DNA of 64,000 bases from Methanosarcina barkeri MS (GTDB lineage: Archaea > Halobacteriota > Methanosarcinia > Methanosarcinales > Methanosarcinaceae), in the NCBI RefSeq assembly GCF_000970025.1, contig NZ_CP009528.1:3211168-3275167 (forward strand), in the 5' to 3' direction. Positions within the stretch are counted from its first letter, which is position 1. The number at the start of each line of letters is the position of its first letter. The position numbers and the translations under genes are program-made. Of this stretch, positions 603 to 9,225 are shown in pieces. A model generated the notes under the pieces. It searched no databases. It was not told where the DNA came from and saw nothing but the letters and a program-made list of their open reading frames with translations.

Positions 603-1264
603 TATAAATCTCCTTAAAATTTCATGATGAAAACTAAGTATAATGTATAGATAGGAAAAAACTTCATAGTATAAACAGGTTGGGGAAGAAAGAGTTGTAA
701 AAACAAAAGAAGAAGGTACTGGAAAATTGGGGGAATAATCACAGAGACGCTGGATGAAAAGATAACTAATAAAATTAACTGCAATCCAGTTGGAATAAAA
801 ATCTGGCTTTGGAAATCTAAATGAAGAGTTTCAGGGAAAAACTCAATTTAACTAATATATATTACAAGTGGATAAAAGTCTATGTTTTAACCGTAAAAAT
901 TCCCAAACTTTTCACAAAAAGGCAAGATTCTATAATATCATCCAAATACTTATATAACGAATCAGATTTTTGTATCAATTGCATAGTGAACGGGCCTTCT
1001 CTGGACCACATCTACAAGATCACACCCGAACAAACAAACTATAAAATTAACCATGAGAGGATTATACCCGTTCACAGTTTATTCTGTTTTTCGTTTGAGT
1101 ATTTATTTAATGATTAGTAGCAGGCGTATTTTCGGAATCTTTGACTCTCCAAGTGCAATTTTGGAATCGCCAGTATCTTCAAAACCATGAGTGTTATTCC
1201 TGAATGAAACAAATTGTTTTTATTACTAAGGAAGTACAGAGGGTCACGAATACCTCATCTTTAT
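603..1264. other. AT-rich intergenic stretch, no convincing gene
   Basis: This 660-base stretch separates ilvD from a decayed insertion sequence. It holds only a 98-codon open frame at 821-1117 with no ribosome site and no recognisable motif, which I do not regard as a gene. No hairpin or repeat stood out by eye. Confidence 0.4.
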
Positions 1265-2199
1265 AGGCTGTTCGACAATTACTGGTAGTAATAAAATAAT
1301 TATCGTCTGCTGTTAAATTGGAACTTTAACTTTATGAAATTTGCATTCCATTCCTTATTCCTTTCTTTTTAATGTGAAGAGTTCCATTTATTTCTATTTC
1401 TCATTCCAATTATTTTGTTTTTATTTGAGTAAATCCATAATTTTCTTGAGTTAGCTACCGTACACACTAAATTAAATTTGTTCTTGACTGATTTCAATCC
1501 TCTTGAATATATGGATCTAATCTCCAATAACTTTCAAAACGTCTTCTATTACCGTACTATTTTTTTGACGCCGAAGCTTTTACTATGTATCCATCAGTGC
1601 TTAATTACTCAAGACCTATTACTCCAAGATCTTTATTTAAATACTTCCGTGATCAATTTTTTATTTTCTTTCCTTAAGTCGCTGATTGTTCTAAATCAGG
1701 TTGCAGGTTTTCATCCAGATACCTGTAAACTACATTTTCTCGAACATTGCGAGCTATCGCTTGCGATGATCTAACCCTATCAAGTATCGATTGAATAAAA
1801 ATCTTACATATTATGCAAGGATGATAAGAGTTGTGTCCATAATCGTTAGATCTTACTTTAAATTCACTAAATCCCTCTCATCTACAAAATACTCAACCAA
1901 ATAGCAAACATGATCTAAAGGAATAAGATCTCGAATATCTGTATGTAAAGTCCAAACTTGATTTTTTGAATATTTGATGAAAGCCAGAACTCAAAATATT
2001 TGATATATTATTATAAAATTATTACTATGTATTCAAACCGTAACTCTAATTATCTGCGGTAATTGCTTGACTATATTACATTACAAGGTAAAGCGTCATC
2101 ATTAGACCTCGTATGCCAAAGATATCGTTCGTAGTTAAATCGCTAACAGAGATTGGAGTAACTGTCTAATCTGACAAAGTCAAGATTGTTGAGCAGCCT
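1265..2199 (-). mobile_element. Decayed insertion sequence with terminal inverted repeats
   Basis: The left end AGGCTGTTCGACAAT (1265-1279) and the right end ATTGTTGAGCAGCCT (2185-2199) are inverted repeats matching at 13 of 15 positions. The interior holds minus-strand relics of a DUF772/IS1182-like transposase. At about 0.93 kb it is shorter than an intact element carrying such a transposase would be, so it is probably internally deleted as well as frameshifted. A related end occurs alone at 38906-38920. No clear target duplication was seen. Confidence 0.7.
1470..2000 (-). pseudogene. DUF772/IS1182-like transposase relic
   Basis: Read on the minus strand, successive frames give pieces in the family order: DIRDLIPLDHVCYLVEYFVD (about 1880-1945), then GHNSYHPCIICKIF followed by RSSQAIARNVRENVVYRYL and DENLQPD (about 1690-1840), then RKENKKLITEVFK (about 1635-1675) and LSTDGYIVKASASK (about 1565-1605). 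These match the N-terminal half of transposases with the DUF772 domain. Stops and frameshifts between the blocks show that it is dead. The catalytic C-terminal region was not found. Confidence 0.7.
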
Positions 2200-2599
2200 G
2201 TTTAGGGGAGGGTAGCTGCAATCAATTTGATTTTTTACACAAAAACAGATTAATTGAAGAGTAAACAATATCAATCTTTCTAGAAATGTTGGAAAATTGA
2301 CATATAGAGGGGTTTTGAGTGAAGATATTCGGTTAATTTAGCTTTTTATTCCAATTTAATATATTCTTGGAAATTTGAATTTGATAATTGATTATAATAT
2401 AACTAAATATATAACAAAAATAGATCTTTGAATATAAATACTATAATTATAGTAAGTAAATTAATAATTACAAAAATTTAAACTTGATTAAATTTGGAAA
2501 GATATTTATGTCTAAAAATGTATTAAACTTCCTGCAATATAATTTAATACTGTAATATTTTTTTATACACTCAAGTGAGTTTTTATATGAGGAAAATTT
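2200..2599. other. Very AT-rich upstream region of the PfkB/AAA+ gene
   Basis: No gene is seen in these 400 bases. A run TTTTTTTATACAC near 2551-2563 lies about 40 bases before the next start codon and could be the archaeal TATA element, but AT-rich context makes this weak. Confidence 0.3.
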
Positions 2600-4864
2600 A
2601 TGAATGACTTAAAAATTGTTGTTGCCGGAGACGTAAGTGTAGATCGTTATTATTGGCCCAGAGTCAAATCCTCAAACGACGAAGATATAAACTGGAAATT
2701 GTACGATGGTATTAGCACAGAGAAACAACCTGGAGGAGCCGTTCTCTTAGCTGAAATAATAAAATGTTATCTTGTAAGTAAAAAAATTTCCCCTGAGTTA
2801 GTAATATCTCAAAATTGTAAAAATTTAATTCAAAAAAATTCTAATGAAATACTTCACACAAGTGTAAAATTAGATTTATTTCCTTCTTTCGATTCTAATG
2901 GTAAAAATAAGGAAGCTAAAATATATAGAGTAACAAAATATTTAGGTTACGCAACTCCTAAAGATGATATTAAATACCCACAACCATTAGAAATAATTGG
3001 TGATGATGAGAGTGCTAGTATCGTCGTACTTCACGATGCAGGAAATGGCTTCCGTAATGATAAAAATGTCTGGCCGAAAGCGATAAAAGGGGATAAAAAG
3101 CCAATTGTGATCTATAATATGTATCCACCTCTTTTTAATGGAGATCTATGGGATCATGTACTAAAGCATCATAAAGAAAATCTAATTTTAATCCTAAACG
3201 TAGACGATTTAAGAAAACTAGGCGCAAACATTAGTCGTTCAATTTCATGGGAAAAAAGTGCTATGGAGTTATTGTGGGAGATCGACAATAATGAAAAACT
3301 TGATAAAATTAAAGAGTTGACTAATGTAATTATCCGTTTTAAATTTGAAGGAGCGGTTCATTATAAAGGAAAAAACAGTAGATCAAATTTGTACTTTGAC
3401 CCAGTATCAATAGAGGGAGGTTGGGATGGTGATAAATTTGGTAAAATGAGGGCTGGAACACTAGTCTTTGTTGCTGTTTTATCTTCACGTTTATTTTATG
3501 GGCTTGATAACAATAATGATTATAAAGTTCAGATAGGACGTAGTATTAGAAGAAGTTTAATTACATCATATAAGTTTCTACTGGATGGTTATGGAAATCA
3601 TAACAGCACCCCATCCTTTAAACAAACTTTTTCAAACCTCTTTAATGAAAATGATCAAGGTTCCAGTAATAATGATCCTTCTTCATATAACGATAACTCA
3701 TCTATAAGTAAATCCCCGAATGATCTTTCTTCATATAACAATAACTCATATATAATTAAATCTTCGAAATCCTCTGCTAGTCGTATACAATGTGTCACAT
3801 TACCACAAATAGATGGTGCAATAAGACCAGATCCAAGTTTTTGGACAATTCTTGGAGGAAAAACAGAAAAAGAGTGTGCTGAAAAGAAAGAAAAGCCTAT
3901 TGATCTAGAAAAACTTGCTTTAAATATAGTTACAGATGGGCTATCTACTCTTAAAGATTTTCCAGTAGGAATGTTTGGGAAATTAATTACAGTCGACCGA
4001 GCAGAGATAGAGAGTTTCAGAAGTATAATGAATATAATGAGAGAGTATATCTATTCTGAAAATAAACAAAAACCTCTGTCTATCGCAGTTTTTGGATCTC
4101 CAGGTTCTGGAAAGTCTTTCGGAATAACTGAAGTTGCAGAAAGTATAGATAACAAAAGAATTCAGAAAGTAGTTTTTAATATTTCGCAATTTACATCTAC
4201 CAAGGACTTGGCAAGTGCCTTTCATAAAGTTAGAGATATTTCCTTAAGAGGGAAAATTCCACTAGTATTTTTTGATGAGTTTGATTCCAAGTTTGAAAGG
4301 GAAAATTTAGGTTGGATAAAATATTTTTTAGTACCAATGCAAGATGGGGAATTTATGGACTGTGATACCATGCATCCTATTGGAAAATCAATATTTGTTT
4401 TTGCGGGAGGCGTTTACTACACATATGACGATTTTTATAATTACTGTCGTTTATGTACCAACCAAAATATCCCTTCTGACAAAAATTTCTGCGATGATGT
4501 ATCTAATAAATGCCCCGATTTCTTGAGCAGGCTTAGAGGATTTGTCAATATTCTTGGCCCTAATAAAACAGGTGATTTTGATGAGGCATACAAAATCCGT
4601 AGGGCAATTCTGTTACGCTCATTGATTGAAATGAACGCTCCAAATATGATCGATAGTAATGGTAATTTGCATATCAATGAAAAATTGTTAAATGCTCTTA
4701 TCGACGCTCCAGGATATATTCATGGGGTACGCTCAATGCAGGCAATGGTGGATATGAGTATGCTTCATGAGGAAAATTCATGGCAAAAAGCCTCTTTACC
4801 TCCTAAAGAGCAACTTAAACTTCATATTGATGAAATAGATGCATTTTATCGAATTTTGGTCTGA
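2600..4864 (+). CDS. PfkB-like domain fused to AAA+ ATPase, unknown function
   Basis: This 754-residue protein has two nucleotide-handling halves. Residues 1-330 resemble a ribokinase/PfkB fold: KIVVAGDVSVDRY at the start, GGAVLLAE where the family has its GGA motif, LILNVDDLRKLG, and EGGWDGDKFGKMRAGTLVF where the catalytic GAGD motif is expected. That last motif is degenerate, so kinase activity is doubtful and nucleoside or nucleotide sensing is an alternative. A Ser/Asn-rich linker with a small internal repeat (about 345-390) leads to an AAA+ ATPase with Walker A GSPGSGKS at 499-506, Walker B VFFDEFD with D559/E560, a sensor-like FVFAGG and FLSRLRG as a candidate arginine finger. It stands alone in an AT-rich accessory region. 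The start has a weak GAGG/AGGA-type site (about 2589-2593). The architecture suggests a regulated NTPase, possibly in host defence; that is inference. Confidence 0.85.
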   Translation: MNDLKIVVAGDVSVDRYYWPRVKSSNDEDINWKLYDGISTEKQPGGAVLLAEIIKCYLVSKKISPELVISQNCKNLIQKNSNEILHTSVKLDLFPSFDSNGKNKEAKIYRVTKYLGYATPKDDIKYPQPLEIIGDDESASIVVLHDAGNGFRNDKNVWPKAIKGDKKPIVIYNMYPPLFNGDLWDHVLKHHKENLILILNVDDLRKLGANISRSISWEKSAMELLWEIDNNEKLDKIKELTNVIIRFKFEGAVHYKGKNSRSNLYFDPVSIEGGWDGDKFGKMRAGTLVFVAVLSSRLFYGLDNNNDYKVQIGRSIRRSLITSYKFLLDGYGNHNSTPSFKQTFSNLFNENDQGSSNNDPSSYNDNSSISKSPNDLSSYNNNSYIIKSSKSSASRIQCVTLPQIDGAIRPDPSFWTILGGKTEKECAEKKEKPIDLEKLALNIVTDGLSTLKDFPVGMFGKLITVDRAEIESFRSIMNIMREYIYSENKQKPLSIAVFGSPGSGKSFGITEVAESIDNKRIQKVVFNISQFTSTKDLASAFHKVRDISLRGKIPLVFFDEFDSKFERENLGWIKYFLVPMQDGEFMDCDTMHPIGKSIFVFAGGVYYTYDDFYNYCRLCTNQNIPSDKNFCDDVSNKCPDFLSRLRGFVNILGPNKTGDFDEAYKIRRAILLRSLIEMNAPNMIDSNGNLHINEKLLNALIDAPGYIHGVRSMQAMVDMSMLHEENSWQKASLPPKEQLKLHIDEIDAFYRILV

Positions 4865-6146
4865 AGCTTGATTTTACCTTAAGTGTGTAAGTACCCGCAA
4901 CGAAGTAACCTATGCAACTTATGATTTATTGTGACTTTGATTGGCTACCTTGATCGTGAAAACCAAAACGTCCAATTGGAAATCTGCATAGTTTATTCTG
5001 AGACGGAGCCTAAGTATTAAAATTATATTTTCCAATAAATAAAGATACATCAAATTGTGGTCGGCCACTTCACTCTAAAAAATAGGTATGCTTCAGACCG
5101 CCCACAATTTGATTTTTAAAGATTTTTAAATCTTATTTTGCAAAGAACTGGTGTTACAGTTATGTGAATATAAAATAGCTAGTGAGGGTCACTTCATTCA
5201 CAGACTTGAAAGTCAGGGCGTATTCGCGCCCCTCTGTGCCTCTATAGTAGTAAAAAGTCTCTAATTTCTTTTGGAACTGTATTAGGAATGTAGTTATTTT
5301 TTAACTGGCGATTTTTTTTCAGCATATTAACATTTGGTGAAGTTTTTGCTTTTTTGTGTTAACTTCATGAGATGTTTTTTATCCGTTTTAGTCATGTTTG
5401 CTAACTCCATACAAGGTTTATGCTGTTAATATATTCTAATTGTTCAAGGCATCAAGATCGCGACATAATTTGAGTATAACATCTAAATAATATAGACTCA
5501 TTGAAAAATAATTAGTTTTTTAATGGATATTAAACCTTATTTTCCCAATTAAATGTAGTGTCAGCCCTTACCCCTTTAAGGTACATTCATTAAATGATCT
5601 ATTTGCTGTTTAAAGGACTTAAATACTTTAATTGATAATTTAAACGTTGATTTTTCCTTACTTTTAACATTAAATTCGGTATGGATAAAAACGATATCAC
5701 ATGCCTTATTTATAAATAAACATAAATTGTAAAAGAATAAAGTATTTATCTCGCTCTCTTCTTGATTTTAAAGAGTATTATAAATTATTTATCTAAAAAA
5801 TTGATTTTTAGAGTGTACCTTAATTGGAGAAACCCTAAATGCATACTTATTATCCAAAATAAGCATTGTATATCCTTAGTTTTAGTACTGATTTGGAAGG
5901 ACCCTAAAATAATAGTTTAATAGCTTGGTCTAATGTTCTGATTTTTCTGTTTGTTTCTTCATTCCAGATATTTATAGAAAATGCCAATAATAACATATTG
6001 CAAACCTACATACAGAAGTAAGCGAACTCGAACAAAAGCTATACTATCTATGTAATTTTCTATAATTTATGTAATTATCTATAACTGAACATATATAAGG
6101 ACTTAAGATTGTAATTACATACTTATAAAAATCTGGAGGTTGTGCA
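4865..6146. other. Long AT-rich intergenic region
   Basis: About 1.3 kb without a supported gene. It contains the hairpin repeat at 5051-5111 and a short GC hairpin GGGCG-TATT-CGCCC near 5217-5231. The rest is AT-rich with many stops in every frame. I see no transposase or RNA gene signature. Confidence 0.4.
5051..5111. repeat. Dispersed hairpin repeat, copy 1
   Basis: A perfect 10-base stem CAAATTGTGG (5051-5060) pairs with CCACAATTTG (5102-5111), and inner GC-rich segments extend the fold. The loop carries the core AAAAAATAGGTATGCTT. The core recurs in copies at 6576-6625 (opposite strand) and 43891-43937, each also forming a hairpin, so this is an interspersed repeat rather than a unique terminator. 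Confidence 0.65.
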
Positions 6147-6500
6147 GTGAGTGCAGAATGTTGTACTGAAAGACAACAACACAATTTAATGATTGAAGAA
6201 GAGATTGAAAAAATAAAAGCGGAACTCGAAATAGCATCTGAGAAGGTCGCGTATTTCGATAGTTTAATAGTAGCCGCAGATAACCTGAAAAAATCTGCAG
6301 AGAATAAGATTATACAAACACAATCCAAAAAATTAGATTCGATCACCAACAAATTGGATTCACAAATTCAAAGTCTCGGAGAACTAATAAGGAAAGCTGA
6401 GATCAAAAGAGAGGAAGCAGTAAACAAAGTACTGGACGCAGAAGTTAGTATAATAGTGCTAGAAAATAAAATATTACACTTAAAATTAGCAAATTTTTAA
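6147..6500 (+). CDS. Small coiled-coil protein, unknown function
   Basis: The protein has 117 residues, almost wholly charged helix: repeated Glu/Lys/Ala/Ile heptads run from about residue 8 to the end, with no membrane segment and no catalytic motif. The GTG start at 6147 has a strong GGAGGT site seven bases upstream, which supports a real gene despite the short length. It lies 1.3 kb downstream of the PfkB/AAA+ gene and 0.9 kb upstream of the PAS protein, so it is probably transcribed alone. A role as an oligomeric scaffold or adaptor is only a guess. Confidence 0.7.
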   Translation: MSAECCTERQQHNLMIEEEIEKIKAELEIASEKVAYFDSLIVAADNLKKSAENKIIQTQSKKLDSITNKLDSQIQSLGELIRKAEIKREEAVNKVLDAEVSIIVLENKILHLKLANF

Positions 6501-7419
6501 TCAATGTATAAAGGTCAAAAAGTAGTTGTGTGATGGGAAAATGTGTAGACTCTGTTTTTAAATTACAACCAGAACAGTGGCGCGAACATACCCATTACTT
6601 TTGGTGGGGTGGCCGTCCGCAATTTGATTTTCTTACGTCCTTATGATGAGATTGGAAATTACGGTGTATTCTGAAAAATGAATCCTGAAAGTAGATCGCA
6701 ATATTAAGTATAAAGAGACTGAAGTAGGGTCTCCCTCATACCCTACTGCAGATCTTTAATGGAGGTTTTATGTTGTTTTAGACTTTTTGCCATTTTTGGG
6801 TTTTTTGCCATTTTTCTTTATTGTACTCCAGATTTACCGGTTTACTCAATTACTGTATCGTCTTCTAGAAATCCACTTACTTCACGCTTACCGATAAAAG
6901 TCTCTTTTTGAGATCTTTTAACTTTTACGTGTCTGATTAATGATGGGGTTCATGATAGACATCCAGATTTTAGAGACCCTATCTATGGTGGTATAATTAT
7001 GAAATTTAACACCAGAGTTTCTCTAGCTGCAGACTTATACCTGCAATCTAGGAGTACGGATTCTTATTACCGTGCATTTATTATATATATTTTTCCCTTA
7101 AGGTGATAAAACAGAATTCGATGCATAAAGCTGAGTATCGGGGAGCTAAAAAAACTCATTATTTATAGTTATCGCTGTTAGCATTAATAACGACAAGAAA
7201 ATAAAACGCTGTAATCAAAAAAATTGATGCTATCTAGATATGTAATCATATAAATGAACTATAGATAAAAAGCAAGAGCACAGAACACAAGAATAAAGGA
7301 GCGCAGGAAAGGGATATTAAAGAGTCCTGTGAAGGTGATTATATAGATGGATGAGGGGTCCCGAGGGCAAAGATCGTTAAGTTTGCGAGGGAAAGTGCTT
7401 TGTGAAGGTGATTGTGTAT
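6501..7419. other. AT-rich intergenic region before the PAS protein
   Basis: No gene is supported. It contains hairpin repeat copy 2 (6576-6625) and two T-rich direct repeats TTTTTGCCATTTTT (about 6784-6817). A partial duplication of the translation-start region of the next gene lies at 7331-7358: it repeats GTGAAGGTGATT plus an ATGG start found again from 7402. Confidence 0.4.
6576..6625 (-). repeat. Dispersed hairpin repeat, copy 2
   Basis: On the minus strand this reads GCGGACGGCCACCCCACC, then an A-rich loop, then ATGGGTATGTTCGCGCCACTG. It has the same order of parts as the copies at 5051-5111 and 43891-43937: GC arm, CACCCCAC, A-run, ATGGGTATG and a complementary GC arm. It is followed on the plus strand by CAATTTGATTTT, which also follows copy 1. 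Confidence 0.55.
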
Positions 7420-9225
7420 ATGGGTGAGGAATTAGAGAACTATGGAGCTTTGAACGCGAACTTCCAGAACGCTGGTAGTAAAAACAACGTAGGAGGAGAA
7501 GCTCTCCACGCAGCTCTGGAAAGAGAAGAAACTCTGAGAATGATGATCAATAACAGCCACGTAGTGCTCTTTCTCTGGAAGAACGAAGATAAATGGCCTG
7601 TGGAGTTTGTCTCCGAAAATGTGACAAAATTCGGATACTCTGTAGAAGATTTCACTTCTGGAAGGATGCGATATAAAGATCTAATATACTTAGGTGATCT
7701 CAAAGAGATTGAGGAAGAATTTGAGAAAAAAGTAAAAAGTGGGGTTTCTACGTTCAGCCTGGAATACAGGATTGTAACAAAAACAGGAGATCTCCGCTGG
7801 ATAAACGAAAGGACTTTTATCCAGAGAGATAAAAGTGGAGAGGTGACATACTTCCAGGGAGTAGTGCTTGATATCACCAGACGGAAAAAAGGCGAAGAAG
7901 AACTGAAAAAAACTCTTAAAATGCAGAAAGTGTTGATTACAGCAGTTAATAATAGTCCTGCAGTGGTCTTTCTCTGGAAGAATGAAAAGTACTGGCCTGC
8001 GATTTTTGTATCCGATAATGTAGTACAGTTTGGATACACAGTTGGCGACTTTCTATCACAGAAAATTCAGTACGGAAAAATCATACACCCTGATGACCTG
8101 AAAAGAGTAGAAGAGGAACTTGACAGGAGCATTCAAAAAGGGGAGGTAAGCTTCAACTCTGAGTACAGGATTTTTACAAAAGCCGGAGATATGTTGTGGG
8201 TAAACGAGAGAACCTTTATTCAGAGAGATATAGAAGGAAAAGTAGCCTGCTTTCAGGGAATAGTACTGGATATAACCCATAGAAAGAAAACTGAAAAAGC
8301 CCTGAGAAAATCATTAAAAACGCAGGAAATGCTGGAAAGCATAATTAATAAAAGTCCGGCAGTAGCTTTTCTAAGAAACAATATAGGGAGAATTCCTACA
8401 AATTTAGAAAAATTGTCTGCAAATTTAGAAAACTGGCCTGTAGATTATATTTCTGAAAACGTAACGCAGTTTGGGTACTCAGTAGAAGATTTTCTTTCTG
8501 GAAAAGTACATTATGGGAACATAATCCATAGAGAAGATATTCAGGCAGTGGCTGAAAGTCTGGCACGCTCGGTAAGAGAAGGATATGATTCCTTCGAGAT
8601 GGAATATAGAATTATTACCGGAGACGGCAGTATATACTGGGTCGAAGACCGAACACTTATTCAGCGAGACAGTAAAGGCAAAGTCACTCATTTTCAGGGA
8701 ATAGTCATCGATGTTACTGAGAGAAAAAAGGCTGAGAAAATGCTCGAAATCCAGAGGGAGCTGGGGGTATCCCTCAGTACTACCTGGAATCTTCAGACCA
8801 TGCTTAACCAGATCCTTGACACCTGCCTGAAAATAGAAGAGATAGATGCTGCAGGCATATATTTGAAAGACGAACTTCTGGACCAGATTAATCTGGTTGC
8901 ACATCGGGGACTTTCTCCCGAATTCGTGAAAAGTGTTTCAATATATAGGGCAGATTCTCCTGAAGCTCGGCAGATATGGACTGAGAAACCGGTCTACAGG
9001 ATGGATTTTTTTGCAGATAAAATGACAGATTTAATCAGGAAAGAAAAACTTACTGCAATCGCCGTGATTCCTATGAAGCACAGAGGAGAAATCATAGGCA
9101 GCCTTAATTTTGCTTCTCATACTACAGACCGGATTCCACAGAACGTATGCAATTTTCTTGAGAGTGTAGCTCTCCAGGTAGTGAACTATATATCTCCTCT
9201 TCGTATTGCGGCAGACCTTGGATAA
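7420..9225 (+). CDS. Triple PAS/PAC plus GAF sensor protein without kinase
   Basis: A cytoplasmic signal sensor of about 601 residues. Counted from the GTG at 7402, three PAS/PAC units lie near residues 54-160, 187-297 and 319-446, each with a WPxxFVSENVxxFGYxxxDF type segment and a closing FQGxVLDITxRKK type PAC end. A GAF domain follows at about 453-605. No histidine kinase, receiver or membrane segment is present, so the output must be through a partner. The third PAS unit has a 15-residue insertion after VAFLRNN. I prefer the ATG at 7420, because AGGTGAT sits seven bases upstream; GTG at 7402 adds six residues. The ligand (haem, flavin or other) is unknown. The flavodoxin gene 200 bases downstream hints at redox sensing, which is inference. 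Confidence 0.9.
   Translation: MGEELENYGALNANFQNAGSKNNVGGEALHAALEREETLRMMINNSHVVLFLWKNEDKWPVEFVSENVTKFGYSVEDFTSGRMRYKDLIYLGDLKEIEEEFEKKVKSGVSTFSLEYRIVTKTGDLRWINERTFIQRDKSGEVTYFQGVVLDITRRKKGEEELKKTLKMQKVLITAVNNSPAVVFLWKNEKYWPAIFVSDNVVQFGYTVGDFLSQKIQYGKIIHPDDLKRVEEELDRSIQKGEVSFNSEYRIFTKAGDMLWVNERTFIQRDIEGKVACFQGIVLDITHRKKTEKALRKSLKTQEMLESIINKSPAVAFLRNNIGRIPTNLEKLSANLENWPVDYISENVTQFGYSVEDFLSGKVHYGNIIHREDIQAVAESLARSVREGYDSFEMEYRIITGDGSIYWVEDRTLIQRDSKGKVTHFQGIVIDVTERKKAEKMLEIQRELGVSLSTTWNLQTMLNQILDTCLKIEEIDAAGIYLKDELLDQINLVAHRGLSPEFVKSVSIYRADSPEARQIWTEKPVYRMDFFADKMTDLIRKEKLTAIAVIPMKHRGEIIGSLNFASHTTDRIPQNVCNFLESVALQVVNYISPLRIAADLG

Follow-up and report, generated by a model that had tools for sequence, protein, structure and literature searches.

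A Predicted Pseudokinase-AAA+ Fusion Protein of Methanosarcina barkeri from a Family Whose Members Commonly Carry a RyR Domain

The open reading frame at positions 2600..4864 (+ strand) of the window, the whole 64,000-nucleotide stretch of the Methanosarcina barkeri MS genome that was analyzed, has an ATG start and encodes a 754-residue protein; relatives align with it over its full length, so it is a real gene. Its product joins an N-terminal domain with the fold of ribokinase, predicted to be catalytically dead, to a complete AAA+ module, a fusion for which Pfam, NCBIfam, and PADLOC have no model. Most useful among the new findings are the connection of this widespread family with RyR domains, from which the window protein departs, the pseudokinase state of its N-terminal half, and the immune-type operons in which it is found outside the Clostridia. 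For the family, a nucleotide-sensing NTPase switch in a defense-type system is the best-supported description.

RESULTS

Both halves of the fusion proposed by the first-pass annotation, a PfkB-like domain and a complete AAA+ module, are borne out, the first by fold comparison of an AF2 model and the second by a PF00004 match and conserved motifs. The N-terminal domain comprises residues 1-345 (2600..3634, +). An earlier AF2 model from 12 sequences was poor (pLDDT 54.8) and was set aside, but the model from 75 sequences has a pLDDT of 86.6 and a pTM of 0.88; in it, residues ∼1-400 align with ribokinases, pseudouridine kinases, and tagatose-6-P kinases with Z scores of 17-19.7, and the top structural match is a ribokinase (Z 19.7, 281 residues, rmsd 4.9), so that the ribokinase fold expected within residues 1-330 is present. 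The fold is seen by fold comparison only, since the N-domain gave nothing reliable when its sequence was compared with Pfam and with PDB sequences; a Pfam scan of the window protein produced no PF00294 match above the cut-off, and a PfkB Pfam match was found in 1 of 59 relatives (E 0.08). The likeness to the ribokinase/PfkB superfamily (ribokinase, pseudouridine kinase PUKI/PsuK) thus lies in the fold of the N-domain over ∼280 residues, but the window protein differs in its low identity (9-15%), in the loss of the GAGD aspartate, and in being fused to an AAA+ module.

The counterpart of the GAGD motif is AGTL in the window protein (residues 285-288; 3452..3463, +), in which the catalytic Asp is absent, and the family consensus is G-[LY]-T-S (GLTS); the equivalence was set by inspection of the start of the FVA(G)L helix, not by residue-level structural superposition. 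The composition of this column shows that Asp has been lost in 72 of the 75 aligned members. With the motif missing from almost all of the family, the N-terminal half is a predicted pseudokinase. The motif had already been described as altered, which is correct, but its location was displaced, since residues 285-288 fall at the end of, and just past, the segment that had been quoted for it. Asp is present at this position only in L065, L071, and L100 (as GLTD or GVGD), where it may possibly be a remnant of an active kinase or a reversion.

The two domains are separated by a variable linker (residues 346-434; 3635..3901, +) that is gap-rich in the alignment and partly disordered, with pLDDT values <50 at residues 356-390, in keeping with the low-complexity linker noted at first. 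The AAA+ module, residues 435-754 (3902..4861, +), is the sole part of the protein matched in the Pfam scan (PF00004, 23.7 bits against a cut-off of 21.2, E 7e-5). Its Walker A sequence, GSPGSGKS (residues 499-506; 4094..4117, +), and the Walker B acidic pair Asp559/Glu560 (4274..4279, +) are exactly where the annotation had placed them and are invariant or nearly so, the acidic pair in 75 of 75 sequences. Arg644, in PDF(x)SRL(R/K)G (4529..4531, +), and Arg711, in HxxRS (4730..4732, +), are also invariant (n = 75) and are, by analogy with Clp-type AAA+ proteins, a putative arginine finger and a putative sensor 2 residue, respectively. The AAA+ half is probably an active ATPase, as judged from these motifs. 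Clp-type AAA+ modules (ClpB D2-Skd3) are among the best Foldseek matches, which are whole-model matches of low coverage from which no clade was assigned. Walker A and B and the invariant arginines of SRLRG and HxxRS are features in common with these proteins, but the window protein differs from them in its N-domain, and no protease partner was seen.

Of 100 related genomes, 17 have homologs, as do 7 of the 31 genomes of the genus; some of these homologs are fragments, and fragmentary copies are present in G003 and G094, two genomes other than that of M. barkeri MS. When one genome was scanned for each species, the best 80 of 251 candidates were retained; among these are homologs from Clostridia, Chloroflexota, Planctomycetota, Acidobacteriota, deltaproteobacterial lineages, Hydrogenedentota, Verrucomicrobiota, and archaea. 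Clostridium magnum has three copies of the gene, and two homologs are plasmid-borne.

The usual protein of the family has ∼850-900 residues. A C-terminal extension, at least 134 residues long, is found in 66 of the 75 aligned members and, where scanned, carries a RyR domain (PF02026). A profile of the family matches solved RyR structures with an E value of 2e-27. The domain, the R12 repeat of animal RyRs that is also found in a putative prokaryotic RyR (3nrt) and in phage RyDEP, is carried by relatives, but the window protein differs in having none: PF02026 gave no match to it, and a search downstream of the gene found no RyR remnant. The domain is also absent from its three Methanosarcina clade-mates. 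These four members, which have 53-59% identity and fully conserved AAA+ motifs, form one clade in the tree (100/100) that is located beside archaeal copies in which the RyR domain is intact, frameshifted, or truncated; judged from the sequences, the Methanosarcina clade of the window gene has lost it. A second member in the same genome (L016:9571-12768; G000:C2:2484070-2487267) encodes 1065 residues and has kept its RyR domain (PF02026, E 3e-15). This paralog and the window gene fall in distant clades, the paralog grouping with a verrucomicrobial relative, and two separate lineages of the family thus meet in one genome.

Phage RyDEP, which has the RyR fold, binds cADPR through His75, Trp78, His100, and Asp117 (PMC13232231). 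By spacing, 11 of the 23 non-Clostridial bacterial members match all four ligand residues, against 2 of the 39 Clostridial members. RyDEP-type residues are conserved in a Chloroflexota member aligned to the solved RyR repeat, and the RyR domain of the M. barkeri paralog retains the His, Trp, and Asp.

The neighborhoods of the homologs differ by lineage. In Clostridia, the gene is solitary in 46 of 47 loci, an immune-type neighbor being found in one, whereas 21 of 24 loci of non-Clostridial bacteria have an immune-type gene at most three genes away. The immune-type queries were TIR, SLOG, SLATT, TrkA-RyR, Rel-SLOG-RyR, DUF4062, and SIR2; at the non-Clostridial bacterial loci they matched 41 of the 105 genes close by and 4 of the 54 farther off (Fisher p 9e-6, an optimistic value because the queries were picked after the same loci had been viewed). 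The recurring neighbors are a SLOG-like protein at +1, a TrkA_N-RyR protein at +2, and TIR, DUF4062-STAND-type, SLATT, and RelA/SpoT-SLOG-RyR proteins. The order gene - SLOG - TrkA/RyR, at offsets +1 and +2 and on the same strand, is repeated in several Chloroflexi. The SLOG label of the small +1 protein is based on SLOG-SLATT similarity and a weak DprA-like match. The TrkA_N-RyR proteins L093:7805-9598 and L067:6093-7919 have N-terminal hydrophobic segments and are channel-like, with a prokaryotic RyR domain. The RelA/SpoT-SLOG(TRPM type)-RyR proteins L090:10685-13264 and L107:13221-15755, which stand beside members of the family, are possibly alarmone-type synthetases with a RyR sensor.

In a Desulfomonile MAG, a TIR domain is fused to a homologous AAA+ half (L060:2347-3906) directly upstream of the PfkB-AAA-RyR gene, so that TIR replaces the pseudokinase in this paralog; the arrangement was seen once, and no further TIR-AAA fusion was evident in the 30 genomes behind the loci. 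The M. barkeri paralog adjoins a divergent SIR2-domain gene, similar to Thoeris ThsA models, and a GNAT gene, and the homolog on a Methylobacterium plasmid has a large SIR2 gene within ∼1.4 kb, with two small genes between. TIR and RyR genes are accordingly found beside homologs, as the survey of neighbors suggested by the annotation had anticipated, and the homologs are not located in a housekeeping operon. A 2TM zinc-ribbon gene found beside three Methanosarcina homologs was considered as a partner and rejected, since six congeners that have no fusion gene also possess it, which makes a resident flank the more probable explanation.

The operons of homologs share SLOG, SLATT, TIR, SIR2, TrkA-RyR, and RelA-SLOG-RyR genes with nucleotide-centered conflict systems of the SLOG/SLATT/TIR kind and with Thoeris, but the family differs in having no ThsA/ThsB pair and in its central pseudokinase-AAA+ gene, which PADLOC does not recognize. 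DUF4062, reported to be a TIR-like NADase in phage defense (Swarozyc; PMC13174449), is represented by proteins within three genes of homologs at several loci; no DUF4062 gene is near the window gene, however, and the neighbor that was scanned has AAA/NACHT-like and WD40 parts, not the tested auxiliary domain.

The window copy itself has no immune neighbor and no partner gene, the pair of ThsB TIR protein and ThsA effector being absent among its neighbors, which agrees with the original observation that it stands alone. It lies in DNA of 30-32% GC, with ilvD upstream on the opposite strand and, on the other side, a PAS-GAF gene and then a flavodoxin gene. The PAS-GAF gene (7402..9225) encodes a sensor protein with three PAS domains and one GAF domain, internal repeats, and no kinase domain, and is conserved at this site in congeners. 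A repeat-rich 5.5-kb segment (1191..6693) that includes the gene is missing from the chromosome of the nearest relative, G029 (92% identity in the upstream flank), where the bases matching window positions 1190 and 6694 are adjacent; four further relatives have the same gap at nearby points, and the interval from ilvD to the flavodoxin gene is ∼8.8 kb here compared with 2.6-3.9 kb in other congeners. The repeats flanking the gene have many copies in the genome, and a dispersed repeat of ∼415 bp (5491..5909) with no long ORF has nine other copies at 85-92% identity and is like a MITE or an IS remnant. Neither target-site duplications nor terminal inverted repeats were found at the ends of the segment. 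Of the earlier description of this region as AT-rich and IS-scarred, the low GC content, the repeats, and the missing segment stand, but no specific IS element was identified. The segment is probably accessory cargo that was acquired horizontally; alternatively, the gap may represent a deletion in the relatives.

DISCUSSION

The reading that we favor, plausible but still tentative, is that the family is an AAA+ switch of ADPR/NAD-type immune signaling, with the window copy as a variant that lacks the RyR domain. The kinase fold of the N-domain would have been converted from an enzyme into a ligand sensor or docking platform and, in the common form of the protein, the C-terminal RyR domain would provide a pocket for ADP-ribose-type signals. 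Binding of an NAD-derived nucleotide to the RyR domain, to the pseudokinase pocket, or to both would cause the AAA+ ring to assemble or to hydrolyze ATP, and the ring would then activate or release a partner effector, with TIR or DUF4062 NADases, channel-like TrkA_N/RyR proteins, and SLATT membrane proteins as the candidates. The RyDEP residues in the RyR domains, the reported NADase activity of DUF4062, and the TIR and SIR2 neighbors make a signal of the ADPR/NAD type the most economical choice of ligand. In the window copy, input would come through the pseudokinase pocket, the pseudokinase being the sole candidate sensor within the protein, or through another protein. Ring assembly, the ligand, the partners, and an antiviral role are what we infer for the family from these comparisons.

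The patchy distribution among the 100 relatives and the presence/absence polymorphism at the site support the immune-switch reading. Against it are the window copy, which has neither RyR domain nor immune neighbor, and the Clostridial homologs, which make up most of the sampled loci and have no conserved partner; in addition, most Clostridial RyR domains do not have the full ligand set, PADLOC is blind to the family, and the TIR-AAA fusion is single. The annotation's proposal of a nucleoside- or nucleotide-sensing NTPase switch in defense therefore holds best for the family, through its TIR and RyR neighbors, and less well for this gene: linked genes for signal, sensor, and effector are present at 21 of the 24 non-Clostridial bacterial loci and at none of the positions around the window gene.

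The solitary Clostridial copies and the three copies in C. magnum, together with the likeness of the AAA+ half to Clp-type remodelers, would also fit a stress or metabolic AAA+ activase or remodeler with no part in immunity, in which the pseudokinase would respond to a nucleoside or sugar phosphate, the ring would reactivate or take apart a metabolic complex, and the Chloroflexi neighbors would reflect an accumulation of variable genes. This is a serious possibility but a somewhat doubtful one, in view of the ordered same-strand gene - SLOG - TrkA/RyR arrangement that recurs in several Chloroflexi, the RyR domains common to neighboring genes, and the patchy distribution and polymorphic site.

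A different question concerns the window clade, which could be a decaying or decoupled derivative in which loss of the RyR domain left a non-functional protein or one that hinders or attenuates the paralog in which the domain is kept. The domain is missing in all four members, related archaeal copies have it in truncated or frameshifted form, and there are fragmentary copies in G003 and G094; however, the 754-residue frame is intact and the AAA+ motifs are fully conserved across four proteins that have 53-59% identity. The RyR-less form has also persisted, because it is a supported clade, and we regard decay as unlikely. A counter-defense or mobile-element fitness gene that handles or binds host nucleotide signals for a carrier element, as phage RyDEP does, is a highly improbable reading: phages do have RyR proteins that degrade or sequester cADPR (PMC13232231), the window copy is on a variable segment, and two homologs are plasmid-borne, but the IMG/VR scan turned up just a single viral contig with a gene for a relative, phage records match the RyR part only, and the RyR domain is exactly what the window copy is without.

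The immune-switch reading can be extended to a bolder form that is rather doubtful as a whole: members of this widespread and as yet unnamed family would use a dead-ribokinase sensor on an AAA+ ring to couple ADPR-type immune nucleotides, via the RyR domain, to NADase, channel, or membrane effectors, and the Methanosarcina branch, having shed the RyR domain, would rely on the pseudokinase alone to detect a different ligand. Burroughs et al. reportedly described RyR/SLOG systems by comparative genomics in 2015, so that a prior account of RyR/SLOG neighborhoods is possible; our literature search found no paper that joins RyR with a PfkB-AAA+ protein.

If the immune-switch reading is true, the pseudokinase-AAA+ RyR family is a candidate host-side reader of cADPR-type immune signals, whose handling by RyR domains has only just been reported, in phage proteins (PMC13232231). 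The family would make the role of prokaryotic RyR domains directly testable, and it represents a case, in archaea and bacteria, of a metabolic kinase fold that has been turned into a likely regulatory domain.
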